Assembly: GCA_027491295.1 (NCBI GenBank)
Contig: JAIXWK010000002.1
Coordinates: 432,032 to 496,031, forward strand
DNA: 64,000 nt
Source of the DNA: Microbacteriaceae bacterium
Lineage (GTDB): Bacteria > Actinomycetota > Actinomycetes > Actinomycetales > Microbacteriaceae
Direction: 5' to 3'
In this document: one piece after another, positions 48,211 to 64,000 of the stretch
Layout: each line of letters starts with the position of its first letter
Numbering within the stretch: the stretch's first letter is position 1
The notes under the pieces: generated by a model
Told to the model about the DNA's origin: nothing
Databases searched by the model: none
The model's input: only the letters and a program-made list of their open reading frames with translations
Translations under genes and position numbers: made by a program

Positions 48211-49401
48211 ATGGCTAAGGCGAAATTCGAGCGCACCAAGCCGCACGTCAACATCGGAACCATTGGTCACGTTGACCACGGTAAGACGACTCTGACTGCG
48301 GCTATCACCAAAGTACTTCACGACAAGTACCCAACCCTGAACGCTTCTTACGCGTTCGACCAGATTGACAACTCCCCAGAGGAGAAGCAGCGCGGTATTA
48401 CCATCAACATCTCTCACGTTGAGTACCAGACTGAGAAGCGCCACTACGCACACGTAGACGCTCCAGGTCACGCTGACTACATCAAGAACATGATCACCGG
48501 TGCGGCACAGATGGACGGTGCGATCCTTGTGGTTGCAGCAACCGACGGCCCAATGCCTCAGACCAAGGAGCACGTGCTTCTTGCTCGCCAGGTTGGCGTT
48601 CCTTACATCGTTGTGGCTCTAAACAAGTCCGACATGGTTGACGACGCTGAGATCCTTGAGCTAGTAGAGGTTGAGGTTCGCGAACTTCTATCTATGTACG
48701 AGTTCGATGGCGACAACGCACCTGTTGTTCAGGTTTCCGCACTAAAGGCACTTGAGGGTGACGCTAAGTGGGGCGAGACCGTTCTAGCTCTTATGGATGC
48801 AGTTGACAACAACGTTCCTGAGCCTGTTCGTGACACCGATAAGGCATTCCTTATGCCTGTTGAAGACGTTTTCACCATCACTGGTCGTGGAACCGTTATC
48901 ACCGGCAAGATCGAGCGTGGCCAGATCAAGGTGAACGAAGAAGTTGAGATCGTTGGAATCCGCGACAAGCAGAAGACCACCGTTACCGGTATCGAGATGT
49001 TCCGCAAGCTTTTGGACTACGCAGAAGCCGGTGAGAACGTAGGTCTACTACTACGTGGAACCAAGCGTGAAGACGTAGAGCGCGGCCAGGTTGTTGTAAA
49101 GCCTGGTTCGGTTACTCCTCACACCAACTTTGACGCCAACGTCTACATCCTTTCCAAGGATGAGGGTGGCCGTCACAACCCGTTCTACGCGAACTACCGT
49201 CCACAGTTCTACATCCGTACCACTGACGTAACCGGTGTTATCACCCTGCCAGCTGGTACCGAGATGGTTATGCCTGGTGACACCACCAACATGACCGTTG
49301 ACCTAATTCAGCCGATTGCGCTTGAAGAGGGACAGCGTTTCGCTATCCGTGAGGGTGGCCGCACTGTAGGTGCTGGTACCGTCACCAAGATCAACAAGTA
49401 A
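48211..49401 (+). CDS. tuf: Elongation factor Tu
   Basis: 396 residues delivering aminoacyl-tRNA. G1 [11 protein letters not shown]3 DAPGHADY, G4 NKSDMVDD. Leu codons by my count: 12 CTT, 9 CTA, 3 CTG, 1 TTG of 25, a marked CTT/CTA preference. Followed by a strong terminator. Confidence 0.98.
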
Positions 49402-49533: not shown

Positions 49534-51039
49534 TTAGGAGAGCATGTCCTTGGTTAGTTCGTTCTTCTCGCTCTTGTTGATTAGAGCCCATACATAACCG
49601 ATTACTCCGGCGATGAATGGCAGCAAGACGAGGAACCAGCCAAGACCGTTGAGCTGCCATGCGCTCTCAGGTAGTGATGGGTCAACCCCGTCTGGCACGG
49701 TGCCAGCGAGCAGGTTGAAGCGGCTCATCAATAGGTAGAGCGCTAGTAGCAACAGAATTGCCGAGGCTACAGGTGCGATGGTTGACCTCCAGAGGTTCTC
49801 GCCACCGTTCTGCTTGAAGAAGCGCACAACTGCCACGGAGACCAGGACCTCAACAATCAAAAGGCTGATAACCGTAACTGCGCTCATCCAGAAGAACAAG
49901 TTGAGAACTGGGTCCAGACCGGCAATTGCGAAGATGATCATGACAGCTGCGGCGAGCACCGAGGTTGCAATTACACCATTCGATGGAGCACCAGCAGCGT
50001 TGGTCTTTCCGAAGCTAGCCGGTAGAACACCGCCACGACCCATTGCAAAGAAGTAGCGAGCGCTGGCGTTCTGGAATGCCAATAGACCGGCAAACAAGCT
50101 AGTGAGTACCAACCAGCCCATAACAGTGGTCATCCATGGGCCAACGTATTGGTTCGCCAGCGAGAAGAGCACAGCGGCTGGGTCGGCAAGTGGGACGCCA
50201 TCGATTGCTGAACGAGCAATAACCTCATCAAAAATCTTGGAGGCTCCCATACCGGTGACCATTGCGAATGAGGTGAATGCGAATACCACGGTGATTAGTC
50301 CGATAGCCCAGTAGGTTGCCTTAGGCACTGAGCGCTTAGGATCAATCGACTCTTCACCGTAGATTGCGGTTGCCTCGAAGCCAATGTATGAAGCGACAGC
50401 AAAGGCTAAAGCGATACCGGCACCACCAGCAAAGCCACCAGCAAGAATCTGATCAGGTGAGAAGGAAGCTCCGAAGTTTAGGCCTTCTGGTCCGCCATCA
50501 ATCAAAATCACGGCTGCGGTAATCAGCAGTGCAGTTAGCTCGACTACAAGCAAGACTCCCAGAACCTTGGCGCCGATGTCGACACTGAGTAGTGAAAGTC
50601 CAGTTACTAGCGCCCAGGCAATCAAAGACCATACATACCAGGGAAGTTCAATACCCATGGCACCCATTTGGCCAGCCAGTACGCCTCCGAAGAAGCCATA
50701 GATAGCCAGCTGAATGGTTACGTAAGAGACGATTGATACAAAGGCGGAAGCAACACCTGCGTTAGCACCAAGACCTCTGCCAACGTAGGCGAAGAAGGCG
50801 CCTGTATTTGTGACCCGACTGCTCATGGCGGCGTAGCCGACACTGAACAACATCAGGATTAAGCCAACTGCTAGGTAAGCACCTGGAGCAGCAGCTCCGT
50901 TGCCTGCGAGCATTGCCACTGGAACCGCACCGGTCATTCCCACAAGAGGGGCGGAGGCGGCTACTACGAAGAAGACAATACCTAAAACACCTAGTTTTCC
51001 GGATTTAAGTGACCCGGCCGATCCGTTTTTCTGCGACAT
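49534..51039 (-). CDS. APC-family amino acid/amine permease
   Basis: 501 residues, 12 or more hydrophobic segments; VFFVVAASAPLVGMTG is the APC helix 1 motif and ASYIGFEATAIYGEESIDPKR the conserved consensus loop. It is the likely uptake system for the island substrate (amino acid, polyamine or aromatic amine). ATG with GGAG upstream; the palindrome at 51060 lies 21 bp before the start. Confidence 0.85.
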   Translation of the reverse strand: MSQKNGSAGSLKSGKLGVLGIVFFVVAASAPLVGMTGAVPVAMLAGNGAAAPGAYLAVGLILMLFSVGYAAMSSRVTNTGAFFAYVGRGLGANAGVASAFVSIVSYVTIQLAIYGFFGGVLAGQMGAMGIELPWYVWSLIAWALVTGLSLLSVDIGAKVLGVLLVVELTALLITAAVILIDGGPEGLNFGASFSPDQILAGGFAGGAGIALAFAVASYIGFEATAIYGEESIDPKRSVPKATYWAIGLITVVFAFTSFAMVTGMGASKIFDEVIARSAIDGVPLADPAAVLFSLANQYVGPWMTTVMGWLVLTSLFAGLLAFQNASARYFFAMGRGGVLPASFGKTNAAGAPSNGVIATSVLAAAVMIIFAIAGLDPVLNLFFWMSAVTVISLLIVEVLVSVAVVRFFKQNGGENLWRSTIAPVASAILLLLALYLLMSRFNLLAGTVPDGVDPSLPESAWQLNGLGWFLVLLPFIAGVIGYVWALINKSEKNELTKDMLS

Positions 51040-51059
51040 AAATTCTCCTCATTGAGTTT

Positions 51060-51083
51060 TAGTCGTTTTGACACAAACGACTA
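51060..51083. promoter_or_regulatory. Island operator 1
   Basis: TAGTCGTTT-N6-AAACGACTA, 9-bp perfect arms (core 51062-51081), between the permease and the acetoacetate-decarboxylase-like gene. Confidence 0.7.
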
Positions 51084-51178
51084 CGTTCTACATTGGCGCA
51101 AATCAAGCCGAATGTGTGAAGGATTTAGGCACTTGAGAAAGTTCTAAATCAAATCGTTATAAAGCGATAAATAGGAAA

Positions 51179-51198
51179 ATCGTTTGAAAGCAAATGAT
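51179..51198. promoter_or_regulatory. Island operator 2
   Basis: ATCGTTTG-AAAG-CAAATGAT, one mismatch in 8-bp arms; covers the promoter of the gene starting at 51215. Confidence 0.65.
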
Positions 51199-51214
51199 TG
51201 CTATTCTTGACTAC

Positions 51215-52027
51215 ATGACCGAACTAAGTGGGTTTCTCGCCCCAAAGACGCCTTCAGGCAAAAGCGCAATCATTCCTCACATGCCGTGGTTCTATTCTGG
51301 AACCCTGCTGACTGTTGAGTATTTGACAGATCCTAAGAATGTCCGAGCAATCCTCCCCCCAGAGCTTGAGTTGGCAGATGAAGAGCCAGGAGCAGTCGCA
51401 TTGATTTGGGCCGATTGGCAGTCATGTAGCACCGATAAGGAAGAGCTACTCGATCCAGTGAGATCGCAATACATGGAAGCCTTCGTGGTTGTTAGGTGCA
51501 AGTTCGAGGGGGTCACCTATTCAAGGTGTGTAGCCATCTGGGTTTCTAAGGACTTCGCAATTGCCCGAGGTTGGTTCCAGGGTTACCCAAAGAAGTTGGG
51601 TTCAATTCACGCGACTCGCGTTTACAACCGTGGGCAAGCGACCCCGAGGCTAGAAGCCGGGGCCAAGTTTGGAGCAAGCATCGCAGCCAACGACCACAGA
51701 TTGGCAGAGGCGGTTGTCACACTTCGTGCGAAGTCGGAGCACAACGGATTTGTAAATGGACACAAGATGCTGCACAGTCGTTGGATGCCGTCAATCACAC
51801 CTGGACTGGGAAACTCCATGGATCAGCTGATCACCATGGGTGGCGTCGACGCTGATCTGGGAACTCCTTGGGTTGGCGATGCAGAGCTCAATCTTTTCGA
51901 TTCACGTTGGGACGAGCTCGGTTCGATTCTTCCGGTTCAGGAAATTCTCGGGGGCTATTTCCGTGAGGTTGGAGTGACCTTCAACGGCGGTACCCTAGTC
52001 AAGGACTTCTCGAACCCCAACATCTAA
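51215..52027 (+). CDS. Acetoacetate decarboxylase-family protein
   Basis: 270 residues. GWFQGYPKKLGSIH (Lys126/127) is the ADC Schiff-base Lys motif. Members decarboxylate acetoacetate or act on other oxo acids in catabolic or biosynthetic pathways; here probably a ring-fission or oxo-acid intermediate. ATG 51215 is 7 nt after TATTCT; an ATG at 51194 lies inside operator 2 and is less likely. Confidence 0.75.
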   Translation: MTELSGFLAPKTPSGKSAIIPHMPWFYSGTLLTVEYLTDPKNVRAILPPELELADEEPGAVALIWADWQSCSTDKEELLDPVRSQYMEAFVVVRCKFEGVTYSRCVAIWVSKDFAIARGWFQGYPKKLGSIHATRVYNRGQATPRLEAGAKFGASIAANDHRLAEAVVTLRAKSEHNGFVNGHKMLHSRWMPSITPGLGNSMDQLITMGGVDADLGTPWVGDAELNLFDSRWDELGSILPVQEILGGYFREVGVTFNGGTLVKDFSNPNI

Positions 52028-52073
52028 ATCCAACTGACCTTAGCCCTCAAGGTCTGAGGACGGTGACTTTGGT

Positions 52074-53426
52074 TTAGAAGTCCTCCATGTATTCGCGGAT
52101 TTCCCATTCGCTCACGGTGCGACCGTGGAGTTGTCCGACTTCTGAGTTGTAGCGTTCGAGCTCATCTCGCTTCAGGGTCAGGAAAATCTCAATAAGGCTG
52201 TCCGAAATCAGACCGCGAAGTTCGTTGTCTTGTTCAAGTGCCTCGAGTGCATCGGTAAAGGTGGTTGGCAGAACCGGAGCACCTTCGTTTTCGTATGCCA
52301 TTCCCTCGGCAGGCTCTGGGCACTCAAGCTTGTTGAGAATACCCAGCAGTCCAGCACCCAGAATTCCAGCGATCATTAGGTACGGATTAGCTGCGCCGTC
52401 TCCAACGCGCACTTCAAGGCGCGTTCCACTGCCACGCTCAGGAGGTATTCTCACCATGCAGCTGCGGTTGTCATAACCCCAGTTGGCGCGGAATGGAGCC
52501 AGGGTGTCCGGTCCGAGACGCTTGAAGGCGTTGATCGATGGGTTGGTCAAAGCGGTTAGGCCGGAAGCGTGCTCGGTGATACCGGCGATTAGGCGCTGGG
52601 CCACCTCGGAAAGCTCACCACTGCCGTTATCCATCAAGTTCTTGCCGTTGGCGTCAACCACCGAGAAGTGAAGGTGGAAACCACTGCCGCCCTCATCGCT
52701 CCATGGCTTACCCATAAAGGTGGCGTGCTGACCGGTGCGGTGCACGATGTCTTTGATTGCGGCCTTGAACATCAAGGTACGGTCTGCAGCGTCTAGCGCG
52801 TCAGAGTGCCAAATGTTGATTTCGTACTGACCTGGGCTGAATTCGTGGTTACCGGCGTAAACGCCAATATCCATCTGGTCGAGCATTCGCATCAGGTGAA
52901 GGAATGTGCCGTGAGGGTCTACCAGCGATCCGGTGGTGTAGGCCCTGCCGGTGCGGTCCAGCGATCGCTTGAAACCACCTTCCGGGGTTCGATCAGCGAT
53001 GTAGAACTCGAGCTCGGGGCCAACAATCGGACGCAAACCCAGCTCTTGGTATTTGGCGATAATTAACTGTAGAGCTGTGCGCGGTGAGAAGAGGTTCGGG
53101 TTACCGTTTGGTTCGCGTGCGTCCATAATGACGTAGGCCACCCCCGGCTCCCAGGGCATGGGTGTGATGGTCTCGGGTTCGATACGCCCGACTAGGTCCT
53201 GAAGTCCGTCGCTGAGGATGTTTGCTGCATCCAGCACGCCACCCTGAGTATTGGTGTTCCAAATTCCCTGACAAAAGGTCGGTCCACCATGGGCGGAACG
53301 ATCTATGTTGCTTACCAGCAGGTCTTTGGACCGAGGGATTCCCAGCACATCCGAATACAAAACTCGCAGAACGTCGATTCCGCGCTGGCGTAGGGACTCT
53401 TTCAGTGCGCCTAAGTCGAGAGCCAA
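52074..53426 (-). CDS. Glutamine-synthetase-like gamma-glutamyl-amine ligase
   Basis: 450 residues of type I glutamine synthetase fold: GPELEFYI, GNHEFSPGQYEINI, EGGSGFHLHFSV and NRSCMVRIP are the catalytic blocks (Glu metal ligands, His, Arg). Beside a PuuD homologue, an amidotransferase and a permease it is more likely a gamma-glutamylation enzyme for amines (as PuuA, GlnA3 or aniline TdnQ) than the assimilatory GlnA. TTG 53426 has AAAGGAG, 5-nt spacing; an in-frame TTG at 53477 lies inside operator 3. Confidence 0.8.
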   Translation of the reverse strand: MALDLGALKESLRQRGIDVLRVLYSDVLGIPRSKDLLVSNIDRSAHGGPTFCQGIWNTNTQGGVLDAANILSDGLQDLVGRIEPETITPMPWEPGVAYVIMDAREPNGNPNLFSPRTALQLIIAKYQELGLRPIVGPELEFYIADRTPEGGFKRSLDRTGRAYTTGSLVDPHGTFLHLMRMLDQMDIGVYAGNHEFSPGQYEINIWHSDALDAADRTLMFKAAIKDIVHRTGQHATFMGKPWSDEGGSGFHLHFSVVDANGKNLMDNGSGELSEVAQRLIAGITEHASGLTALTNPSINAFKRLGPDTLAPFRANWGYDNRSCMVRIPPERGSGTRLEVRVGDGAANPYLMIAGILGAGLLGILNKLECPEPAEGMAYENEGAPVLPTTFTDALEALEQDNELRGLISDSLIEIFLTLKRDELERYNSEVGQLHGRTVSEWEIREYMEDF

Positions 53427-53460
53427 TGTAACTCCTTTGTCACTTTTTGGACCAACCAAA

Positions 53461-53484
53461 CTGTCGTTTGGGAACAAACGACAG
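53461..53484. promoter_or_regulatory. Island operator 3 (best copy)
   Basis: CTGTCGTTTG-GGAA-CAAACGACAG: perfect 10-bp arms, between the ligase and the divergent amidotransferase. Confidence 0.8.
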
Positions 53485-53556
53485 AATAGTATCTGAATCT
53501 ACTCAATTGCAGATTAGAGCGCAAAAGTTATCTTTGCGTGATTTAGGAGGAGTTCC

Positions 53557-54267
53557 ATGAGGGCACTGTTTATTCAGCATGACCATGTGAGCCCAACTGG
53601 CCCGGTTTCTCAGCGCTTGCGCCACCATGGATTTGAGATTGAAGAGCGAACTGTTGTGCCTGAGCAGCTGTTCAGCACGCCAAACCAGGCCAGCTTTCAG
53701 TTTCCTGACCTTGATGATTACGACCTCATCATCCCATTGGGTGCTCCCTGGGGCGCCTGGGACGATGCCTGCATCGGAAACTGGCTGCAGCCGGAGCTCG
53801 ACTGGGTTCGCACTGCCGTAACGCAAAACAAGCCGGTGTTGGGCATTTGCTTTGGCGGCCAGCTAATAGCTAGGTCAATGGGGGGTAGCGTTGCGCGCGG
53901 CCCACAGTGTGAGATTGGATGGAAGACGATCTGGAGCGAGGCTCCGGAAATTGTGTCTAATGGTCCATGGTTCCAATTTCACTACGACCGCTGGCAGCTG
54001 CCCGAAGGCGCAGTTGAAATCGCTAGGAATCCGATTGCCTCACAGGCCTTTGTCATCAACAAATCCCTAGCGATACAGTTTCACCCTGAGATCAACGCAG
54101 CTGGTCTGCAGGACTGGTTGGCCTGGGGCGGGGATAAGAAGGTGGTTGAGGATGGACAAGATCCGGATATCATGATGCGTCAAACTTTGGCCGAAGAGGC
54201 CGAGGCCGAAAAGCGCACCTTCGCGTTGGTCGACGGATTCCTAAAGCACGTCGCCAAACTAATTTAG
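53557..54267 (+). CDS. Class I glutamine amidotransferase-like hydrolase
   Basis: 236 residues. GICFGGQ gives nucleophile Cys98 and IQFHPE the His/Glu. It resembles the stand-alone amidotransferases paired with GS-like ligases in amine degradation (for example aniline clusters), where they hydrolyse gamma-glutamyl products. ATG with TTTAGGAGGAG upstream. Overlaps the P450 3' end by 4 bp. Confidence 0.78.
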   Translation: MRALFIQHDHVSPTGPVSQRLRHHGFEIEERTVVPEQLFSTPNQASFQFPDLDDYDLIIPLGAPWGAWDDACIGNWLQPELDWVRTAVTQNKPVLGICFGGQLIARSMGGSVARGPQCEIGWKTIWSEAPEIVSNGPWFQFHYDRWQLPEGAVEIARNPIASQAFVINKSLAIQFHPEINAAGLQDWLAWGGDKKVVEDGQDPDIMMRQTLAEEAEAEKRTFALVDGFLKHVAKLI

Positions 54268-55511
54268 CGAGAACTAATCTCCACCTGCATGCGCTTGATT
54301 CCATGCACAAAATTTGACCTCAAGAAGTCGATTTCGCCGACCCGCTTGGCAGAGGAAATTCGGCCAATTAGATCTTCAAACATGACCCTTAGTTCAATTC
54401 TTGCTAGCGCATTGCCGAGGCACATGTGAGGGCCACCGCGACCAAAGGTCATGTGCTCGTTTGGATTTCTGAGCACATCCATCACATCTGCATTGTCAAA
54501 GACAGCTGCGTCACGGTTTCCGGATGCGAACCACGTAACGACCTTGTCGCCAGCTTTAATCAATTGGCCATTGAGCTCAACGTCCTTGGTCGCGGTCCTT
54601 CTGAAGTGATAGACCGGGCTGGCAAAGCGTAAGAATTCCTCCACTGCCCAAGGGATTAGCTCTGGGTTCTCCTGGAGCAACTCAAGTTGAGATGGGTTTT
54701 GCAGCAGGTTGTTGAAGGTGTGGCTGATGGTGTGACGAGTGGTCTCGTTACCGGCAACCACCAGCAGCAAGAAATTGGTGTGGAAGTCGCGCTCAGTCAA
54801 CGGCACGCCATCACTCATCGGGTTGTTTACCAGCACCGAAACTAGATCCGTGCCATCTTTACCTGCTCGCTCCCGCGCCAATTCATCGCCATACGCGAAT
54901 AGCTCAAGAGCTGCCGGTGAGCGGAATGGAATCAGGCGATACTTCTCACTGTCCGGATCGCTAATCAATACATCCGCGTGCTCTGGGTCGTCGAAACCAA
55001 TCATGCGGTTTCCCCAGTCAATTAGCTTGCCGGTATCAGACTCTGGAACATCGAGCAGCTTCGCCAGCACCTGAATTGGGAAGTCCGCCGCTACCTCGGT
55101 AACAAAATCGAAAGTGCCCTTGGCCAGGGCATTGTCTAGGGTGGTGGCCGTCAAGCCCCTAAGGAAGGTCTCGTAAACCGACACCGCCTGCGGAGTGAAT
55201 TGTCCTTGCAGCAGTCTTCGAAGCGCACGGTGCCGAGAACCATCAGTCTCCAACAGTGAGCGTCGGGCTTGCTCTTGCTCAGCATCTACTTCCTCAAGAT
55301 TTGTGAATCGCTCAGAAGTGAAGGTCTCGGAGTCTCGCAGGACTTTGACGATGTCGTGGTACCTGGTTACCGCCCAAAAGCCACTGTTGGGCGCTTCTTC
55401 CTCGCACCATTGAATCGGGGATTTCTCCCGAAGCTCTCTAAAGGCTGCCCAGGGTGCGCCCTGGGAAAAAAGGTCTAGATCTGCGAGGTTGATACTCGAC
55501 GCTGAGCTCAT
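54264..55511 (-). CDS. Cytochrome P450 monooxygenase
   Basis: 415 residues, complete. I-helix VVAGNETTRH, ExxR EEFLR, haem loop HMTFGRGGPHMCLGNALAR (Cys364). A soluble bacterial class I enzyme that needs a ferredoxin and a reductase; both lie 5 kb away in the island operon. Substrate unknown; oxidation of an amine or aromatic side chain is plausible. ATG 55511, 13 nt from operator 4. Confidence 0.9.
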   Translation of the reverse strand: MSSASSINLADLDLFSQGAPWAAFRELREKSPIQWCEEEAPNSGFWAVTRYHDIVKVLRDSETFTSERFTNLEEVDAEQEQARRSLLETDGSRHRALRRLLQGQFTPQAVSVYETFLRGLTATTLDNALAKGTFDFVTEVAADFPIQVLAKLLDVPESDTGKLIDWGNRMIGFDDPEHADVLISDPDSEKYRLIPFRSPAALELFAYGDELARERAGKDGTDLVSVLVNNPMSDGVPLTERDFHTNFLLLVVAGNETTRHTISHTFNNLLQNPSQLELLQENPELIPWAVEEFLRFASPVYHFRRTATKDVELNGQLIKAGDKVVTWFASGNRDAAVFDNADVMDVLRNPNEHMTFGRGGPHMCLGNALARIELRVMFEDLIGRISSAKRVGEIDFLRSNFVHGIKRMQVEISSR

Positions 55512-55524
55512 CAGGAATCCTTAG

Positions 55525-55544
55525 GTCGTTTGGATGCTAACAAT
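55525..55544. promoter_or_regulatory. Island operator 4 (degenerate)
   Basis: GTCGTTTG-GATG-CTAACAAT: left half perfect, right half 5 of 8 matches, between the P450 and marR genes. Confidence 0.45.
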
Positions 55545-55621
55545 AATGACTCTAGCTAACTTAAGGTGCTTGGGACTAGCGGCTTTACAATAGTGATACA
55601 AACTTTGAGAATTTAGGGGCC

Positions 55622-56119
55622 ATGGCCGGGATTCATACCATCGCAGAAACCGAGCGCCAAGTCAGCCTCGTGTTGGGCTCTAAAGCGCTCGATTTCGAAT
55701 CAATGGCGGTAGTGGCTAACATTTTCCGTGCCTCGAATAATCTTCGAAACCACCTAGAGCGCTCGGTGCTGCAGGCACACAATCTTTCTTGGACTGGCTT
55801 TGTGGTGCTTTGGGTGGTTTGGATCTGGGGGCCGGTTGAGACTCGTGAGGTTGCGCGCGAAAGCGGCATTTCGAAGGGAACGCTAACCGGCGTCATGAAG
55901 ACTTTAGAAGGTAGGGGTTACCTGGTGCGAGACCGCGGAAAAACCGACGGTCGCTTGGTCGATGTCAGCCTGACCAAAGCCGGCAGTGCTCTCATGGACG
56001 GCCTGTTTCCGCAGTTCAACCAAGAAGAAGCTCAGGTTGCCAGTGTGCTCAGTAGCCAGGAGAAGGCCGATATTTCAAGGCTGCTGCGACTGATCGCTAG
56101 CCACACCGCTAAAGCTTGA
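55622..56119 (+). CDS. MarR-family transcriptional regulator
   Basis: 165 residues. Winged helix about 64-125: TREVARESGISKGTLTGVMK (recognition helix) and GYLVRDRGKTDGRLVDV (wing). Dimer helices at both ends. Best candidate for binding the island palindromes; ligand probably the amine or an aromatic intermediate. AGGGG upstream. Its 3' end overlaps the convergent PuuD-like gene by 11 bp. Confidence 0.88.
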   Translation: MAGIHTIAETERQVSLVLGSKALDFESMAVVANIFRASNNLRNHLERSVLQAHNLSWTGFVVLWVVWIWGPVETREVARESGISKGTLTGVMKTLEGRGYLVRDRGKTDGRLVDVSLTKAGSALMDGLFPQFNQEEAQVASVLSSQEKADISRLLRLIASHTAKA

Positions 56120-56804
56120 AAGCACTCGCTTCGTGTACGAAGCGCTTGAGCATTGCTAGTTGCCCCGCCTCAGAATCGTAGTTGTCCTCTGGGTGCCACT
56201 GCACCCCGTAAGCCCAACCCGCAGATGGGTATCGAACCGCCTCTACGTAGCCGTCGGTGGACTTGCCGAGCACCTCAATACCATCCCCTAGGCGAGCAAT
56301 AGCTTGGTGGTGATAACACGAAGTCTTTAGCGGACCTGGCTCTAGGCCAAGCTGCACCACTGATTCATCGAAGTTGATTTCTGAGATGTGGTGCCGGTGG
56401 TGCTCGGTCATGTCTTGAATCAGCGAGCCACCTAGGGCAACGTTGGTCACCTGAAAGCCTCGGCAGATAGCGAAGTAGGGCATGGCCTTTTCTAGCGCGA
56501 AACGAGCGAGTGAAAAGTCCACTTCGTCTTGAAGTTCATCAATGCCGTAGAGCTCATCGTTGTTTGGCTCTTCGCCATAACGCAACGGATTGATATCTGA
56601 ACCCCCTGGCATCAGCACTCCGGAGAAACCAGCGAGGACCGTGCTCCAGTCGGAATCCTTGGTCGGCAACAGTGTGATGGGTTCGCCGCCAGCGGCGTGA
56701 ACCGCTTCGAGAAGTCTTCGAGCATTCACCAAGCCTGCGTAGCGGGTGACTGACGTCGACTCGGCAAATCGGCCAAGAATTGCGATCCGGGGTCTGAATT
56801 CCAT
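56109..56804 (-). CDS. Gamma-glutamyl-gamma-aminobutyrate hydrolase-like (PuuD-type)
   Basis: 231 residues, peptidase C26 class I amidotransferase fold. VLMPGGSDINP, AICRGFQ (Cys114) and VQWHPED fit PuuD, which frees GABA from gamma-glutamyl-GABA. With the GS-like ligase it would close a gamma-glutamyl cycle. ATG 56804 has GGAAG upstream. Other gamma-glutamyl amides are possible substrates. Confidence 0.82.
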   Translation of the reverse strand: MEFRPRIAILGRFAESTSVTRYAGLVNARRLLEAVHAAGGEPITLLPTKDSDWSTVLAGFSGVLMPGGSDINPLRYGEEPNNDELYGIDELQDEVDFSLARFALEKAMPYFAICRGFQVTNVALGGSLIQDMTEHHRHHISEINFDESVVQLGLEPGPLKTSCYHHQAIARLGDGIEVLGKSTDGYVEAVRYPSAGWAYGVQWHPEDNYDSEAGQLAMLKRFVHEASAFKL

Positions 56805-56865
56805 CGTTCTTCCTAAATTGTTATAAAGATTCACGGGGCCTGGCCAATTAGATGTTCTAGTCTAA

Positions 56866-56885
56866 ATCATTAGTGTCCAAATGAT
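56866..56885. promoter_or_regulatory. Island operator 5
   Basis: ATCATTAG-TGTC-CAAATGAT (one mismatch in 8-bp arms); wider arms TAAATCATT / AATGATTTA are perfect. Lies 14 bp before the hpaE-like GTG. Confidence 0.6.
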
Positions 56886-56899
56886 TTAAGGGAGACCCC

Positions 56900-58363
56900 G
56901 TGAGTAAAGCTCATGTTTTCGGTGTTGACATTGATACGAGACACTTTATTGGTGGGAAGCGCATTGCGTCCGCAGAAACCTACACCGACCTTTCACCGAT
57001 TGATATGTCGGAATTGGGGCAAATCTCTCGAGGCGGAAAGCAAGAGATCGACCTGGCGGTGCAGGCAGCAAAAGCAGCCTTCCCAGCTTGGGCAGCTCTT
57101 GGGCCAGAGGGCAGAGGAAAACTGCTGTTCAGACTCGCGGACCTAATTGAAGAAAATGTCGAGCTTTTGGCCAACGTCGAGACTTTGGATAATGGCTCGC
57201 TGCTTCGGTCTCATCGTCGAGGAGTCATGCCTAGAGCTGCCATGAACATTCGCTTCTTTGCCGACTGGGCAATGAATCAGCTCAGCCACCCCGACTTCGA
57301 GACCCGCGGCCACACCAACAAGATTTCTTGGGACCCTTCGGGAGTTGCGGCACTGATTACCCCGTGGAACGCCCCGCTGATGCTGGCGACTTGGAAGATC
57401 GGACCTGCTTTGGCTGCAGGAGACACCGTGGTGCTAAAGCCGGCGGAGTGGACTCCGCTCAGCGCTAGCTTGTTCGCCGACCTCACAATCGAAGCTGGAA
57501 TCCCAGCTGGAGTATTTAACGTGGTCTTTGGTTTTGGCAGCGAGGCAGGCGCAGCTCTCACAGCTCACAAGGACATCGCACGAATCTCATTCACCGGATC
57601 TGTGCCGACAGCAAAAATCATCGCCCACGCTGCTGCCGATAACCTCACCCCGGTGAGTTTTGAGCTCGGCGGAAAGAGCCCACTGCTGGTTTTCGAAGAC
57701 GCCGACCTGGAGCTTGCAGCTCAGCTAGCAGTTGAACAGTATGACAATGCCGGTCAGGTTTGCCTCTCGGGAACGCGCATCCTGGTGCACGAGTCGGTGG
57801 CTGCTCCGTTCGCCGAGAAGTTCAAGGAGCGCGCGCTAAAGATTAAGCAGGGTGACCCTCGTGATGAAGACACCGACATCGGACCACAAATTCACCCCGT
57901 TCACTTCGATCGAATCAAGGGCTTTGTGAACCGGGCAAAAGAATCTGGCGCTTCCATCGTGATGGGAGGCTCGGAAAACCAGGAGCTGGGTGGTTTGTAT
58001 TTCAAGCCGACTTTGGTTATGAATCCCGATCCGTTAAGTGAAATTGTGTCCAGCGAAGTCTTTGGTCCGGTGCTTTGCATGCAGACTTTCTCCACTGACC
58101 AGGAGGCTTTGGCAATGGCTAATGGCACCGAGTTTGGGCTTGCCGCCGTTGTGGTCTCGGGCAATCGGGAGCACGCCGAACAAATCACCAAGAACCTGGT
58201 GGCTGGAACAATTTGGGTTAACTGCTTCTTTGTTCGAGACCTACGCGCGCCATTTGGCGGCTCGAAGAAGTCTGGAATCGGTCGCGATGGTGGAACCTGG
58301 TCATTCGACTTTTACGCTGATGTGAAGAACACTGTTTACTCACCAAATGGATGGAAGGAATAG
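56900..58363 (+). CDS. hpaE: Aldehyde dehydrogenase, HpaE-like (carboxymethyl-hydroxymuconate semialdehyde)
   Basis: 487 residues. FELGGKSPLLVFEDAD (Glu base), AGQVCLSGTR (catalytic Cys) and WVNCFFVRDLRAPFGGSK near the C terminus match the HpaE/hydroxymuconic-semialdehyde dehydrogenase group. It would oxidise the semialdehyde made by the ring-cleaving enzyme encoded next to it. GTG start with AAGGGAG, 5-nt spacing. First gene of a seven-gene operon. Confidence 0.8.
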   Translation: MSKAHVFGVDIDTRHFIGGKRIASAETYTDLSPIDMSELGQISRGGKQEIDLAVQAAKAAFPAWAALGPEGRGKLLFRLADLIEENVELLANVETLDNGSLLRSHRRGVMPRAAMNIRFFADWAMNQLSHPDFETRGHTNKISWDPSGVAALITPWNAPLMLATWKIGPALAAGDTVVLKPAEWTPLSASLFADLTIEAGIPAGVFNVVFGFGSEAGAALTAHKDIARISFTGSVPTAKIIAHAAADNLTPVSFELGGKSPLLVFEDADLELAAQLAVEQYDNAGQVCLSGTRILVHESVAAPFAEKFKERALKIKQGDPRDEDTDIGPQIHPVHFDRIKGFVNRAKESGASIVMGGSENQELGGLYFKPTLVMNPDPLSEIVSSEVFGPVLCMQTFSTDQEALAMANGTEFGLAAVVVSGNREHAEQITKNLVAGTIWVNCFFVRDLRAPFGGSKKSGIGRDGGTWSFDFYADVKNTVYSPNGWKE

Positions 58364-58365
58364 AA

Positions 58366-59277
58366 ATGGGTCAAGTACTTGGCGCAGGCCTACTCGCGCA
58401 CGTGCCCACGATTATGCTCCCCGAGGCGGTTCGAAAGGACCTGAACGAGGGCAAGGAGCTAAGTCTGGTTCCGGGGCTGAAGCAGCTTCGTAAAGATGTC
58501 TTTGAGACTCTCGACTACGACACGGTGATTGTTCTGGATAGCCACTGGGCCACAACCGTCGAGTTCGTTGTCACCTCAGCCGCTGAGCGCTCAGGACTAT
58601 TTACCTCCGAAGAGCTACCAAGAGGCATGACGCAGGTCCCCTACTCATTCAGGGGAGATCCGGAGCTGGCCCAGTTAATCGCTGGCAAGGCAGAGAAGAA
58701 CGGAACCTGGATTACTCCAATTTCGGATCCGCACCTTCCAATCTTCTACGCCACTATCAACCTCTGGCACTACCTTGGTCGCGGCCTAGATGACAAGCGC
58801 TGGATCAGTGTTTCGGTCTGCCAGACCGGAACCTCGGAAGACTTCCTTCGGGCCGGCCGCGCCATTGGTGAGGCTATTGCGGAGTCCGACCGAAAGGTCT
58901 TGATTCTTGCGTCAGGTGCGCTATCCCACACCTTCCACAAGTTGCGCGATTTGCGCAAGCACGAAGCCAGTGATCCAAAGCACATCTACACTCCAGAGGC
59001 TTATGCGTATGACCTGCAGGTGCTCGATTGGATGAAGGCTGGAAACCACGGCGCAATTTTGGATGACTTCGGTACCTTCAAGAAGTACAAGCCAGAGGCA
59101 GGCTTCTTCCACTACCTTGCAATGGCCGGAGCGCTAGGGGAAGAGGAGCTGACCGCCAAGGGTGTCATGTACAGCGAGTACGAAAACTCGATTGGCACTG
59201 GCCAGGTTCACGTCTGGTTCCCCCAGCCCGAAGCCGGTTTCCCAAGCGCTAAAAATTTGGTGCTATCTCGTGATTGA
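58366..59277 (+). CDS. hpaD: LigB-type extradiol dioxygenase, HpaD-like
   Basis: 303 residues. HVPTI (His12), LDSHW (His60), LFTSEELPRG, VLILASGALSHTF and GTGQVHVWFPQP follow the order of class III homoprotocatechuate 2,3-dioxygenase. It would open a catechol ring (3,4-dihydroxyphenylacetate or relative) with Fe(II) and O2. ATG 58366 follows AAGGAA; an in-frame ATG 15 bp earlier overlaps hpaE. Confidence 0.82.
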   Translation: MGQVLGAGLLAHVPTIMLPEAVRKDLNEGKELSLVPGLKQLRKDVFETLDYDTVIVLDSHWATTVEFVVTSAAERSGLFTSEELPRGMTQVPYSFRGDPELAQLIAGKAEKNGTWITPISDPHLPIFYATINLWHYLGRGLDDKRWISVSVCQTGTSEDFLRAGRAIGEAIAESDRKVLILASGALSHTFHKLRDLRKHEASDPKHIYTPEAYAYDLQVLDWMKAGNHGAILDDFGTFKKYKPEAGFFHYLAMAGALGEEELTAKGVMYSEYENSIGTGQVHVWFPQPEAGFPSAKNLVLSRD

Positions 59278-60148
59278 AACTAGAAGAATCCTGCTGGATG
59301 GCTTTCCTGTTGAAGTTCTGAGGCAGGGCGAACAATTGGTTGCCCCAGATGGCAGAACCGTTGCCATCAAGGATGCAATCCATCTTGCTCCCGCAGAACC
59401 AACAAAAATCATTGCGGTGCATCTCAACTACGATTCCCGAACCCAAGAGTTCATGACCAAGTTGCCTTCTGCTCCAACCTATTTCCACAAGCCAATCACC
59501 GCGCTGAACTCACACCAAGGTGCAGTAGTCCGCCCCGAGGGATGTAAGTGGTTGAACTACGAGGGTGAAATCGTGATTGTGATCGGAAAAACCTGCCGCA
59601 ACATTTCACCAGCCGAAGCTGGCGAATACATCGCGGGCTACACCGTTGGCAATGACTATGGGCTGCACGACTTCCGCGACACGGATGCCGGCTCAATGCT
59701 CCGCGTCAAGGGCTCGGACACTTTGGCGCCGGTGGGCCCAGGCTTGGTTCGGGATTGGGACTTCCGCAATAAGTACATCCGAACCTATGTCAACGGTGTT
59801 TTGAAGCAGGACGACAACACCGACAACATGGAGTGGGATATGCACTACCTAGTTGCTGACATTGCCAGAACCATAACCTTGGTTCCAGGCGACATGCTTT
59901 TCAGCGGCACCCCCGCCAACTCCAGACCGGTTCAACCGGGTGATGTTGTTGAGGTCGAAGTAGAGGGACTCGGCCGACTTACAAACCACATCGTTGTTGG
60001 TCCAACGCCAATCAGGACCGACGTCGGAGCGCAGCCCACCGAGAGCGAAGAGGTTATCTCCACAGCCATGGGTGGCGATTGGGAGTTCAGAGGAATCAGA
60101 ACCCCTTCCAAAGACCTCTATCCATCGACCGTCGAGGAGAAAAAATGA
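59270..60148 (+). CDS. Fumarylacetoacetate hydrolase-family protein (HpaG-like)
   Basis: 292 residues. LNYEGEIVIVIGKTCRN (metal-ligand Glu), VGNDYGLHDFRD and MLFSGTPANSRPVQPGD are FAH-family signatures. Next to HpaD/HpaE it may be the decarboxylase/isomerase or hydratase step of the meta pathway. GTG 59270 overlaps the hpaD stop by 8 nt. Confidence 0.82.
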   Translation: MIETRRILLDGFPVEVLRQGEQLVAPDGRTVAIKDAIHLAPAEPTKIIAVHLNYDSRTQEFMTKLPSAPTYFHKPITALNSHQGAVVRPEGCKWLNYEGEIVIVIGKTCRNISPAEAGEYIAGYTVGNDYGLHDFRDTDAGSMLRVKGSDTLAPVGPGLVRDWDFRNKYIRTYVNGVLKQDDNTDNMEWDMHYLVADIARTITLVPGDMLFSGTPANSRPVQPGDVVEVEVEGLGRLTNHIVVGPTPIRTDVGAQPTESEEVISTAMGGDWEFRGIRTPSKDLYPSTVEEKK

Positions 60149-60336
60149 TCAAAATCAACGTGGACATGAATAAGTGCCAGCACTATGGACAGTGTGTTTT
60201 TGAGGCACCGAAGATTTTCAAGCTGAACGAGGACGACAAGCTTGAGTACGTTGCAACGGCAGACGATTCTGAGTTGGGAAACATCGAAGCAGCAATTGAT
60301 GTTTGCCCAATGCAGGCGATCTTCATCGTCGATTAG
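60145..60336 (+). CDS. 3Fe-4S-type ferredoxin (P450 partner)
   Basis: 63 residues. Cys11, Cys17 and Cys54 (CQHYGQC ... DVCPMQAI); the middle cluster position is Tyr14 instead of Cys, as in actinobacterial P450 redox partners. Electron carrier between the downstream reductase and a P450. ATGA overlap with the FAH gene. Confidence 0.88.
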   Translation: MIKINVDMNKCQHYGQCVFEAPKIFKLNEDDKLEYVATADDSELGNIEAAIDVCPMQAIFIVD

Positions 60337-60345
60337 TTCACGACC

Positions 60346-61536
60346 GTGTCCGAAGGAGTAGTCGTCGTTGGTGCCTCTATGGGTGGCCTGCGATTGGCAG
60401 AAAGCCTGCGGCGATTCGGATATACGGGACCAGTAAGGATCTTCGGCAACGAGGGCCATCCACCATATAACAGACCTCCGCTTTCCAAGGATCTGCTCTC
60501 AGCCGCGGAGATTGACTTTGCTGAGGTGGCATTTCCGCAACGTTCAGCTACCGCTGATGTTGAGTGGAACCTATCTGCTGCGGCAGTAGCGGCTGACCTA
60601 AGCAATCAAAACATCACCATCAGCGGGGGAGAACAAGTTTCCTTCGAACACCTCGTTATTGCGACCGGGCTAAGGTCTAAACGACTGGGATTTGAATCCT
60701 TCCCAAGCGATCGTCATGCATTGCGCAGCTTCGAGGATGCCAAGGCATTGCGCTCAAAGCTTGGAGTTGGAAGAAAGATTGTGATTGTCGGGTCCGGCTT
60801 TATTGCCTGTGAAGTGGCTGCTACCGCAACCAAGTTGGGCTGCGAAGTCCACATAGTTTCGCCTTCAAAATCCCCAATGGATCGAGCACTCGGAGAAAAG
60901 CTTTCAGCAGTCGTCAAACTCAGGCTAGAAGCACAAGGGATTACTTTCCACATGCAGGCAACCGTTATAGAACTAATTGGCTCAAATCGGCTTGAAGCCG
61001 TGGCCTTGAGTGATGGCAGCACTGTCCGCTGCGACACCTTGGTCGAAGCAATTGGCTCAGAGGCAAACTGCGAGTGGCTGGCCGGCAACGACCTTGACAT
61101 AACAGATGGCCTGCTCTGCGACGGGTCCCTGCGAGCAGTTCGGGCCTCCGGCGGATCATGGCCAAATGTTTTTGGCGTTGGGGATGTGGCTAGATTTCCA
61201 AATCCGATCTTTGACGCAACTCCGCGCCGCATTGAGCACTGGAATATCCCAACCGAGTCAGCCAAATTTGTTGGACAGCAAATTGCCGCTAGCTATAACT
61301 CGATCGAAGCGACTGTCGAAGTCTTCCGACCACTGCCCTCTTTTTGGAGCGATCAGTTTGACATGCACATTTTCGGACTTGGCATGTCATACCTTGCCGA
61401 CGAATCTAAGTTGGTGCACGGAGACATTTCAGGGGACTGCGTTTTTGAATTCACCCGAGAAGGTGTTTTAGTTGGAGTTGTCGGTATTGGACATCGATCC
61501 GTGGTCCAAAATTACAGATCAGCACTGGAAAGGTAG
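60346..61536 (+). CDS. FAD/NAD ferredoxin reductase
   Basis: 396 residues. VVVGASMGGLRLAE binds FAD, IVIVGSGFIACEVA binds NAD(P)H, and FGVGDVARFP is the second FAD site. Rubredoxin/putidaredoxin-reductase-like; passes electrons to the ferredoxin encoded 9 nt upstream. GTG start. Confidence 0.88.
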   Translation: MSEGVVVVGASMGGLRLAESLRRFGYTGPVRIFGNEGHPPYNRPPLSKDLLSAAEIDFAEVAFPQRSATADVEWNLSAAAVAADLSNQNITISGGEQVSFEHLVIATGLRSKRLGFESFPSDRHALRSFEDAKALRSKLGVGRKIVIVGSGFIACEVAATATKLGCEVHIVSPSKSPMDRALGEKLSAVVKLRLEAQGITFHMQATVIELIGSNRLEAVALSDGSTVRCDTLVEAIGSEANCEWLAGNDLDITDGLLCDGSLRAVRASGGSWPNVFGVGDVARFPNPIFDATPRRIEHWNIPTESAKFVGQQIAASYNSIEATVEVFRPLPSFWSDQFDMHIFGLGMSYLADESKLVHGDISGDCVFEFTREGVLVGVVGIGHRSVVQNYRSALER

Positions 61537-61542
61537 AGCCAC

Positions 61543-61809
61543 ATGAGCAACTCATTTTTTGATCTAGACATTTCTTTTGAGGACGACCCAGCACCGGACC
61601 TGTCGAAGATTCCGGTCGCAAAGCTGCGAGCTGCAATCGAAGAGTTGCCGGAAGCTCTCAAGGTTGTGGCGGAGGGAATCTTGCTCGAGAAGCGCACCAT
61701 GTCAGATGTCTCCCAAGCGCTTGGCATTCGTCAGGGTGAACTGGTGACCCGGCTGCACAGGGCACAGCTGGCCATCGGCATGGCCCTGATGAATTCGCCG
61801 AGAGGATAA
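61543..61809 (+). CDS. Small sigma-region-4-like HTH protein
   Basis: 88 residues. An acidic N terminus (FFDLDISFEDDPAPD) precedes a helix-turn-helix like sigma-70 region 4 (IEELPEALKVVAEGILLEK, SDVSQALGIRQGELVTRLHR). No region 2, so it cannot act as a full sigma factor. Inside the catabolic operon, after AAAGG. Function unknown; possibly an activator or sigma-like cofactor. Confidence 0.65.
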   Translation: MSNSFFDLDISFEDDPAPDLSKIPVAKLRAAIEELPEALKVVAEGILLEKRTMSDVSQALGIRQGELVTRLHRAQLAIGMALMNSPRG

Positions 61810-61813
61810 GTTA

Positions 61814-63241
61814 GTGACCATTCTGCAGAACTTCGTGGATGGCGAATATGTGCAGTCACTTTCGGATAAAGCCTTGGATGTCGTTGAACCGGCAACCGGA
61901 ATCACCTACGCAAAGGCTCCAATTTCTAACGCCGCCGAGGTACATGCGGCCTTTAAGAGCGCAGCGCGCGCCTTTGAGGTCTGGGGACAATCCACTCCAG
62001 GTGAGCGTCAGCTTGCACTGCTAAAAATCGCAGATGCCATTGAGGCTAGATCGGAAGAGATTGTTTCGGTTGAGTCGCGCGACACCGGAAAGCCTCTTGC
62101 GGCAGTCAGGGGCGAAACCCGTGCAATTCTGAATCAGATCAGATTCTTCGCTGGAGCAGCCAGGAGCCTAGAGGGCAGAGCTGCCGGTGAGTATCTTCGG
62201 AATCACACCTCTTTCATTCGCAGGGAGCCAATCGGCGTGGTTGGCCAAATCGCGCCTTGGAACTACCCGCTGGTAATGGCCACCTGGAAGTTCGCACCGG
62301 CACTCGCGGCTGGAAACACGGTTGTTCTCAAGCCCAGCGATACCACCCCCGCCGTGACATTGCTACTTGCAGAGATCGCCTCTGAGTTCTTGCCGACTGG
62401 CACATTCAATGTTGTTTTGGGAGACCGTTCTACCGGCCAAGCCTTGGTGGAGGATGCCATTCCACAGATGATTGCTATTACCGGTTCGGTCGGTGCGGGA
62501 ATGCAGGTTGCCAAGACCGCTGCCTTAGACCTCAAGCGAGTTCACTTGGAACTCGGCGGCAAAGCCCCGGTAGTTATTTTTGAAGATGCCGACTTGGAGA
62601 AAGCGGCAAACTCTCTGGTTGAAGCCGCTTTCTACAACGGTGGGCAAGACTGCACAGCGGCAACACGGTTCTTGGTGCATGAGTCGGTGGTTGCAGACTT
62701 CACCGAGTTGTTTAAGTTGGCCATCAAGAAATCCGCCAAGGTCGGAACCCCTGAGAAAGACGGCATTCTTTTCGGTGCGATCAACAACGCGGCCCAACTC
62801 GAAAGAGTCAGAGGTTTTGTCAACCGGCTCCCCGATCATGCTCGCTTGGAACTTGGCGGAGACGATCCAATTGGTAATGGTGGCTACTTCCACTCCGCCA
62901 CCCTGCTCACCGGCCTGCGACAGACCGACGAACATATTCAAGATGAAATCTTTGGCCCAGTCGTTACCGTGCAGTCTTTCAAGGATGAGGCTCAAGCCCT
63001 GACCTTTGCCAATGATGTGAAGTACGGATTGGCCGCTTCGGTTTGGACCAAGGATCACGCTAGGGCGATGAGAATGTCAAAGCACTTGAGTTTTGGAGCG
63101 GTTTGGATCAACACCCATGGACCGCTGACCCCGGAGATGCCGCACGGTGGCTATCGTCACTCCGGCTACGGCAAGGATCTGTCAATGTACGGCTTTGAGG
63201 ATTACACCCGAATCAAGCACGTCATGTCCGCTATAGATTGA
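61814..63241 (+). CDS. Aminobutyraldehyde-type dehydrogenase (PatD/YdcW-like)
   Basis: 475 residues. QIAPWNYPLVMATWKFAPAL, HLELGGKAPVVIFEDAD (Glu base), NGGQDCTAATRF (catalytic Cys) and MPHGGYRHSGYGKDLSMYGF with YTRIKHVM at the end match gamma-aminobutyraldehyde dehydrogenase. It would give GABA or a related amino acid. GTG 61814; last gene of the operon, convergent with the decarboxylase (11-bp overlap). Confidence 0.82.
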   Translation: MTILQNFVDGEYVQSLSDKALDVVEPATGITYAKAPISNAAEVHAAFKSAARAFEVWGQSTPGERQLALLKIADAIEARSEEIVSVESRDTGKPLAAVRGETRAILNQIRFFAGAARSLEGRAAGEYLRNHTSFIRREPIGVVGQIAPWNYPLVMATWKFAPALAAGNTVVLKPSDTTPAVTLLLAEIASEFLPTGTFNVVLGDRSTGQALVEDAIPQMIAITGSVGAGMQVAKTAALDLKRVHLELGGKAPVVIFEDADLEKAANSLVEAAFYNGGQDCTAATRFLVHESVVADFTELFKLAIKKSAKVGTPEKDGILFGAINNAAQLERVRGFVNRLPDHARLELGGDDPIGNGGYFHSATLLTGLRQTDEHIQDEIFGPVVTVQSFKDEAQALTFANDVKYGLAASVWTKDHARAMRMSKHLSFGAVWINTHGPLTPEMPHGGYRHSGYGKDLSMYGFEDYTRIKHVMSAID

Positions 63242-64000
63242 TGCTCTTCGCAACCTCTTCAAGCACTTCGAATAAATCGTCGACATCTTCACGTGTGGTG
63301 CGGAAGTTTGTGAAGCAGGGTCTCAACCAGGTTTCGCCATCGATTTGCGCCTCCGACAGGAAGAAGCGCCCGTCTTGAACTACGGCTTCGGTGAGCAACT
63401 GATTCAGTTTTGAAGTTTTTGCTGAATCTGCATGCTGCAGTTGGATTGGCACCACCGAGAGCTGTGGTCGGTTATCCAGCACTCTAAAGTTTCCCCTGCT
63501 GGATGCAATCGAGTAGCAGTACTGAGCTAGATCAAGGTTGCTCTCCAGTGCAGCCCTGAAGCCTTCTGCCCCAAAGGCGGCAAGCGCCATCCAAAGTTTT
63601 AGTGCACGCAAGGGTCGTGAATACTCCAGGGTGAGATCGACAGGATTTGCGGCCTGGGTGTCGTGCGGCATGTATGCCTCATCGTGACCAAACGTGCTCT
63701 GTAGGACTGAGAGGTCCTTCACCAAAAGCACGCTGCAAGCCTTGGGCACAAACATCCACTTATGGGCATCGATGGTTACCGAGTGCGCTCGGTCGATTCC
63801 GGCAAACAACGCTGCTCCGGTCAGGGTTCCAGCTGCCGGCGCACCATAGGCACCGTCCACGTGCAGCCAAACTCTAAACTCGTCTGCCAAGTCTGCAATC
63901 TGACTCATTGGATCGACCGCACCAGTCAATGTGGTGCCGGCGGTGGCGATGATTGCCATTGGCGTGAAGCCGGCTGCTAAGTCTTGCTGGATTTGAGCCC
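63231..64000 (-). CDS. PLP-dependent group II decarboxylase, C-terminal part (cut by edge)
   Basis: About 256 residues visible; the frame runs off the right edge (QQDLAAGFTP precedes AIIATAGTTLTGAVDP). DAHKWMFVPKACS carries the PLP Lys. Aromatic-L-amino-acid/tyrosine/diaminobutyrate decarboxylase group. It could supply an aromatic or aliphatic amine to the island, but the substrate-specific residues are not in view. Stop TGA-side overlaps the ALDH gene by 11 bp. Confidence 0.82.
   Translation of the reverse strand, partial: AQIQQDLAAGFTPMAIIATAGTTLTGAVDPMSQIADLADEFRVWLHVDGAYGAPAAGTLTGAALFAGIDRAHSVTIDAHKWMFVPKACSVLLVKDLSVLQSTFGHDEAYMPHDTQAANPVDLTLEYSRPLRALKLWMALAAFGAEGFRAALESNLDLAQYCYSIASSRGNFRVLDNRPQLSVVPIQLQHADSAKTSKLNQLLTEAVVQDGRFFLSEAQIDGETWLRPCFTNFRTTREDVDDLFEVLEEVAKSINL

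Follow-up and report, generated by a model that had tools for sequence, protein, structure and literature searches.

A recurrent 20-base palindrome as the probable operator of a MarR-family regulator in a catabolic gene island of Microbacteriaceae

What recognises the five similar palindromes that lie in the divergent gaps of a putative catabolic gene island? The question is raised by a 64,000-nucleotide stretch of a Microbacteriaceae genome (the window, by which we mean the whole stretch analysed), for which the initial annotation proposed the product of a marR gene in the middle of the island as the natural binder. The island comprises positions 49534-64000 of the window and positions 1-669 of locus L017, and its main genes are the following:

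49534..51039, - strand: amino-acid permease family transporter (Pfam AA_permease)
51215..52027, + strand: acetoacetate-decarboxylase-like enzyme (ADC-like; nearest NCBIfam model MppR, below cut-off)
52074..53426, - strand: glutamine-synthetase-like (GS-like) ligase
53557..54267, + strand: class-I glutamine-amidotransferase-like protein
54264..55511, - strand: cytochrome P450
55622..56119, + strand: MarR-family regulator, the candidate for binding the palindromes and regulating its own gene (41.2 bits against the Pfam MarR cut-off of 24.6)
56109..56804, - strand: Peptidase C26/gamma-glutamyl hydrolase-like protein
56900..60148, + strand: HpaE-, HpaD- and HpaG(FAH)-like genes
60145..61536, + strand: ferredoxin and ferredoxin-reductase-like genes (the reductase was identified by eye in the ORF)
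60145-60336, + strand: the small ferredoxin of this pair (Pfam)

The 'hpa' label, for homoprotocatechuate meta-cleavage, stands as a likeness to HpaE, HpaD and HpaG and not as a curated assignment, all three products scoring below the NCBIfam cut-offs (515.7 against 638.35 for HpaE, 137 against 315.95 for HpaD_Fe and 197.4 against 276.4 for HpaG-C). The HpaD-like protein has two PDB sequence matches at E ≤ 1e-10, the first a 3,4-dihydroxyphenylacetate 2,3-dioxygenase and the second a 2-aminophenol dioxygenase subunit. The ferredoxin and the ferredoxin-reductase-like gene, the latter with relatives in many of the clusters described below, are possible partners of the P450. The island also includes a second aldehyde dehydrogenase (named by eye) and a PLP decarboxylase that extends past the window end. 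Separately, a small conserved ORF of 88 aa (61543-61809) has no Pfam match and appears HTH-like by eye in its C-terminal part; its relatives show 68-71% identity and occur in three loci outside the genus.

All five palindromes were confirmed at the positions originally reported, spread over four divergent gaps of the island. The scores and ranks below refer to a symmetric matrix that was seeded with the window sites and then refined with 56 loci from other genera:

51062-51081, strand (.): candidate operator 1, GTCGTTTTGACACAAACGAC, 22 bases before the permease start at 51039 (-); score 17.5, rank 5
51179-51198, strand (.): candidate operator 2, ATCGTTTGAAAGCAAATGAT, 16 bases ahead of 51215 (+), the likely start of the ADC-like gene; score 21.7, rank 3
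53463-53482, strand (.): candidate operator 3, GTCGTTTGGGAACAAACGAC, gap between the GS-like ligase (53426, -) and the class-I amidotransferase (53557, +); score 20.6, rank 4
55525-55544, strand (.): candidate operator 4, GTCGTTTGGATGCTAACAAT, gap between the P450 (55511, -) and marR (55622, +); score 22.3, rank 2
56866-56885, strand (.): candidate operator 5, ATCATTAGTGTCCAAATGAT, gap with the gamma-glutamyl hydrolase-like gene on one side (ATG 56804, -) and the HpaE-like operon on the other (56900, +); score 24.4, rank 1

The perfect 10-base arms reported for the site at 53463 are indeed present (span 53461-53484). The site at 55525, initially described as degenerate, is not the weakest, because the refined matrix places it second and the site at 56866 first. 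A strict search for GTCGTTTG-N4-CAAACGAC with up to three mismatches matched four of the five sites and no other place in the 64 kb (shuffled controls: mean 0.27, largest 2); it missed the site at 56866, which differs at five positions. With the refined matrix, the five sites take ranks 1-5 and the next best place in the window and L017 scores 11.1, none being higher; on this measure, neither the PLP decarboxylase gene nor that of the second aldehyde dehydrogenase has an operator of its own. The first in-frame ATG of the ADC-like ORF (51194) falls within the site at 51179; because a relative in locus L081 (MSELHGF) begins at the equivalent of the ATG at 51215, we take the site to end 16 bases before the likely start.

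The motif is confined to the island at high stringency. In the whole 1.447-Mb assembly, the pattern RTCRTTN8AAYGAY occurs at four places, every one of them in the island, and the reversed control gave none; the site at 55525 is the island site that falls outside this strict form. The longer pattern RTCRTTTGN4CAAAYGAY occurs at four places with up to one mismatch, all in the island, and at six with up to two mismatches, five of them in the island; with up to three mismatches the number of places (40, against 43 in the control) corresponds to background. Confinement of good matches to the island, which had been set beforehand as the criterion, was therefore found at up to one mismatch. Ten of the 35 places beyond the island at up to three mismatches were scored with the matrix, and one reaches 14.2: this palindrome-like sequence lies between two ORFs (C1:27840; L008 1501-1520) and is possibly a weak further target, or a chance match. 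A sequence-only covariance model, scoring at most the best 150 candidates, reported only the site at 53463 in this genome at E ≤ 1.

Within the genus, the palindromes accompany the regulator. MarR was detected at E ≤ 1e-25 in four of 22 genomes, including the window's own (G000, G013, G017 and G018), and each of them carries the four strict island sites, with one extra match elsewhere in G017. The 18 genomes without MarR contain 0-2 strict matches each, nine in total against 29 in the reversed control; one of these genomes, G011, has a single similar sequence, ATCGTTTTGGGGCAAATGAT, and the profile search picked out a further place in it. When locus L080 was compared with the window, all 100 site bases were unchanged and 25 of 410 flanking bases differed (P 0.004); the same comparison gave P values of 0.80 and 0.42 for L078 and L079, two loci that are too similar to the window. 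The island is flanked by tuf (48211-49401) on one side and by ribosomal-protein genes (L017 from 4055) on the other, the latter preceded in L017 by two-component-like genes (all named by eye). This location, together with the presence of MarR in only four of the 22 genomes, suggests that the island was gained or lost as a block.

Outside the genus, the refined matrix identified 146 sites scoring at least 12 in 52 of the 56 loci, and six in the reversed control, with near-duplicate loci and shared ancestry inflating both site and locus counts; the operator consensus is the symmetric 20-mer ATCGTTYGGNNCCRAACGAT. The four loci without such a site are L092, L097, L132 and L136, with that of the MarR-bearing G303 among them, and in several loci from Acidimicrobiia the only site scoring at least 12 is at the ADC/FAH gap. 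Because the matrix had been seeded with the window sites, we also counted, with no seed, all gapped 6-mer palindromes in 46 loci, leaving out the genus and ten near-duplicate Amycolatopsis loci. GTTCGG-N2-CCGAAC ranked first (22 occurrences against 0.2 expected in shuffles, in 14 loci) and CGTTCG-N4-CGAACG third (12 against 0.6), and ATCGTT-N8-AACGAT occurred eight times against 0. Some unrelated GC-rich palindromes exceed expectation too, the second in the count being CGGCGA-N8-TCGCCG (13 against 0.6); the highest count for any palindrome in five shuffles was 11. The strict pattern is unspecific outside the genus, with four matches in G055, which has no MarR at E ≤ 1e-25, and with three and none, respectively, in the MarR-bearing G033 and G039. 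The covariance model, built from 73 of the 97 listed sites, scored at most the best 150 candidates per genome and within these gave no match in G075, G311 or G262. In G245 it reported two places that lie outside that genome's cluster. Since the model is too short for whole genomes, we relied on it for G101 only.

These data also bear on the idea that the palindromes are RNA hairpins or terminators, which we consider extremely improbable. The segment 53461-53484 did score as terminator-like on the - strand, but the palindromes occupy divergent gaps ahead of genes, and what is conserved is the sequence itself, over a symmetric 20-mer; this reading was rejected because terminator-like matches are no more numerous than in shuffles (7 against 6.4).

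Relatives of the MarR protein were gathered from named contigs in 26 loci (42-100% identity); those with the operator in other actinobacteria show 42-65% identity, and many are accompanied by the catabolic genes in a changed order. As a separate observation, a luciferase-like monooxygenase gene (Pfam) adjoins a site in L105 (12406-13341), and L122 has, next to its MarR gene, an ORF whose N-terminus is similar (10359-11300). Among 394 genomes of the class, MarR was found in 32 (E ≤ 1e-30) and the ADC-like gene in 31, with both in 29 (Fisher P 3e-38, phylogeny ignored).

Both genes need not be neighbours. They are separated along the contig by 18 kb in G262, 0.6 Mb in G245, 1.8 Mb in G311 and 6.9 Mb in G075, and they are on separate contigs in G101 and G098, the latter a fragmented assembly that provides weak evidence. 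Six cluster regions away from MarR (L168-L173), whose sites were left out of the matrix although L171 shares 1.4 kb with one of the training loci, contain 3, 4, 3, 3, 2 and 1 sites scoring at least 12, against 0 in each reversed control. In the 5.1-Mb genome G101, all 11 profile matches reported among the best 150 of 1046 candidates, corresponding to six places, are on the contig with the ADC cluster or on the one with MarR; no clear genes were found beside its orphan sites (L127 4261 and 7280). MarR also adjoins a site in genomes with no ADC-like match at E ≤ 1e-20, namely Amycolatopsis (L082), G356 and G257. Two other MarR-bearing cases with no ADC-like match at that threshold, G303 and L097, have no site scoring at least 12 near MarR, and L176 and L177, stretches near the MarR genes of G303 and G356, contain neither such a site nor a cluster gene.

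The ADC-bearing genomes G255 and G374 have no MarR at E ≤ 1e-5, and in both the permease-ADC gap has no site scoring at least 12, the left half being present and the right half changed; G390, from the same genus and with MarR, keeps such a site in this gap. G255 does retain a good site (21, in the GS/P450 gap) and a poor one (14), and the G374 contig stops within the GS gene.

Could the palindromes instead bind another regulator, with MarR as merely one of its targets? A TetR gene is found in or near several clusters and a LuxR gene adjoins one site, but TetR is limited to eight loci (L115, L123, L125, L129 and L168-L171), none of them in the window's genus, and was rejected as the common binder. 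Moreover, sites adjoin MarR even in genomes where no ADC-like match was found, and the permease-ADC operator is gone from both MarR-less genomes, which makes the intervention of another regulator quite unlikely. With TetR in only eight loci and relatives of the small ORF in three outside the genus, MarR appears to be the sole regulator in common among the genes annotated in the loci. The proposal that MarR is the natural binder thus gains support, as far as sequence comparison can provide it, from the co-occurrence across the 394 genomes, from operators both at clusters separate from marR and beside MarR where the ADC-like gene is missing, from the loss of permease-ADC sites without MarR and from the lack of any other common regulator among the annotated genes.

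The winged helix-turn-helix domain expected of a MarR protein is recognised by Pfam, by the predicted structure (a winged helix, pLDDT 92.3) and by the fold, whose best PDB match is the MftR-operator complex 8ylg (TM 0.83), and the putative palindromic operators are found at target promoters and at that of marR. The likeness to the MftR/PecS/HucR subgroup consists of the fold similarity and an N-terminal helix. In the recognition helix (85-97), T87, L88, G90, V91, T94 and L95 are invariant in 35 aligned MarR sequences, including that of the window.

The position of the palindromes relative to genes and promoters points to how they could work. A set of 60 loci, reduced to 47 by dropping 13 near-duplicates, contains 124 sites that score at least 16; none of these lies more than 30 bases inside the matched gene, and many are located 12-30 bases before its start. 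The hexamer TANNNT starts at -13/-12 from the palindrome in 18 of 109 site-gene pairs no more than 60 bases apart, against a largest value of nine in 1000 dinucleotide resamplings, and in four of 73 farther pairs; absent from most pairs in its exact form, it represents a tendency and not a rule. Because this -10-like hexamer tends to sit 12-13 bases upstream in relatives, the operator should cover the transcription start: a -10 element at -13/-12 would put +1 at about the first palindrome base, and a bound dimer would then block initiation. Of four pairs from L080, in the window's genus, three have TANNNT at -8 to -10, for which +1 would fall a few bases inside the palindrome, and one has none. 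A sigma-70 scan of 51000-57000 gave 5 promoter-like sites against 3.4 (sd 1.8), which is no excess.

In distantly related actinobacteria the palindrome is again found next to these genes, and at cluster genes even where the MarR gene is elsewhere in the genome, so the palindromes are very probably docking sites for MarR. From the computed sites, their confinement, conservation and linkage to MarR, and the -10-like phasing in relatives, we infer binding, repression and a ligand: the five palindromes would, with high probability, be operators from which the island's MarR sterically represses the cluster and its own gene until a ligand relieves it. MarR, presumably a dimer as in its family, would occupy ATCGTTYGGNNCCRAACGAT where transcription begins, or immediately downstream of that point, at the permease, ADC-like, GS-like/amidotransferase, P450/marR and hydrolase/HpaE-operon promoters; there it would block RNA polymerase and also repress marR; a substrate or intermediate of the pathway, probably aromatic, would then release it from DNA. 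That MarR activates from these palindromes is a possibility to which we give little weight. Yersinia HpaR does activate T6SS4 from a site 241 bases upstream, according to an excerpt of its description (PMC7180172), but phasing in relatives sets the palindrome over the transcription start, and many sites are only 12-30 bases ahead of the matched gene start.

In the parts of the literature consulted, repressors of the MarR family that have inverted repeats ahead of catabolic genes are a familiar type, and the window operator is unlike those of HpaR, DesR and SCO3205. HpaR from E. coli W and Yersinia is a MarR-family repressor of the homoprotocatechuate (hpa) operon, which encodes extradiol cleavage, and of its own gene, and its operator is, like the window sites, an inverted repeat with a 4-base spacer; it consists, however, of TTAA-N4-TTAA in 15 bases (excerpts of PMC7180172), compared with ATCGTTYGGNNCCRAACGAT here, and the window cluster differs in having P450, GS-like, amidotransferase and ADC-like genes. 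Orthology with HpaR was rejected on the operator and on a score of 51.7 against the TIGR02337 (NCBIfam) cut-off of 121.2. DesR from Sphingobium SYK-6, whose DNA binding is inhibited by vanillate and syringate, is likewise a MarR repressor, and similar inverted repeats precede both its own gene and several genes of aromatic catabolism, although its repeats are of 15 bases, with another sequence and other genes (excerpts of PMC6888825). SCO3205 from Streptomyces coelicolor is a MarR protein with two operators, predicted by comparing actinomycetes, in a gap that adjoins the gene for a class III extradiol dioxygenase; its operator consensus is TTnAAnnnTCAA (excerpts of PMC3737563), unlike ATCGTTYGGNNCCRAACGAT. 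Among the matches listed in open-licence literature, we recognised no description of the regulon, operator or cluster.

As for the pathway, the GS-like, amidotransferase and oxygenase set resembles the start of aniline oxidation, in which, in the excerpts available (PMC4539516), a GS-like ligase (AtdA1), an amidotransferase-like enzyme and an oxygenase feed ring cleavage; by this analogy, the P450 with ferredoxin and reductase would replace the aniline dioxygenase in the window. Operators outside the cluster offer further hints. One of them, in Amycolatopsis L082, stands ahead of a gene for a PLP-dependent decarboxylase, after which comes an amino-acid permease gene. In G356 (L131 10215-11639), a second tyrosyl-tRNA synthetase, with 77% identity to the other one in that genome, shares a divergent gap and an operator with the MarR relative, and the operator overlaps the first in-frame ATG of the synthetase ORF. 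Because of these two cases and of the PLP decarboxylase in the island, there are hints that the pathway substrate belongs to tyrosine-related compounds. We propose only tentatively, and with more doubt than confidence, that this MarR regulon of Actinomycetes and Acidimicrobiia senses an aromatic amine or amino acid, either derived from tyrosine or resembling it, and induces a pathway of gamma-glutamylation, P450 oxidation and extradiol cleavage.

The regulatory logic itself is ordinary among MarR proteins. The 20-base operator is nevertheless now ready for testing and the gene set of a catabolic pathway is defined, while the operators outside the cluster, by tying both a decarboxylase and a second tyrosyl-tRNA synthetase to this pathway, narrow the search for its inducer and substrate.
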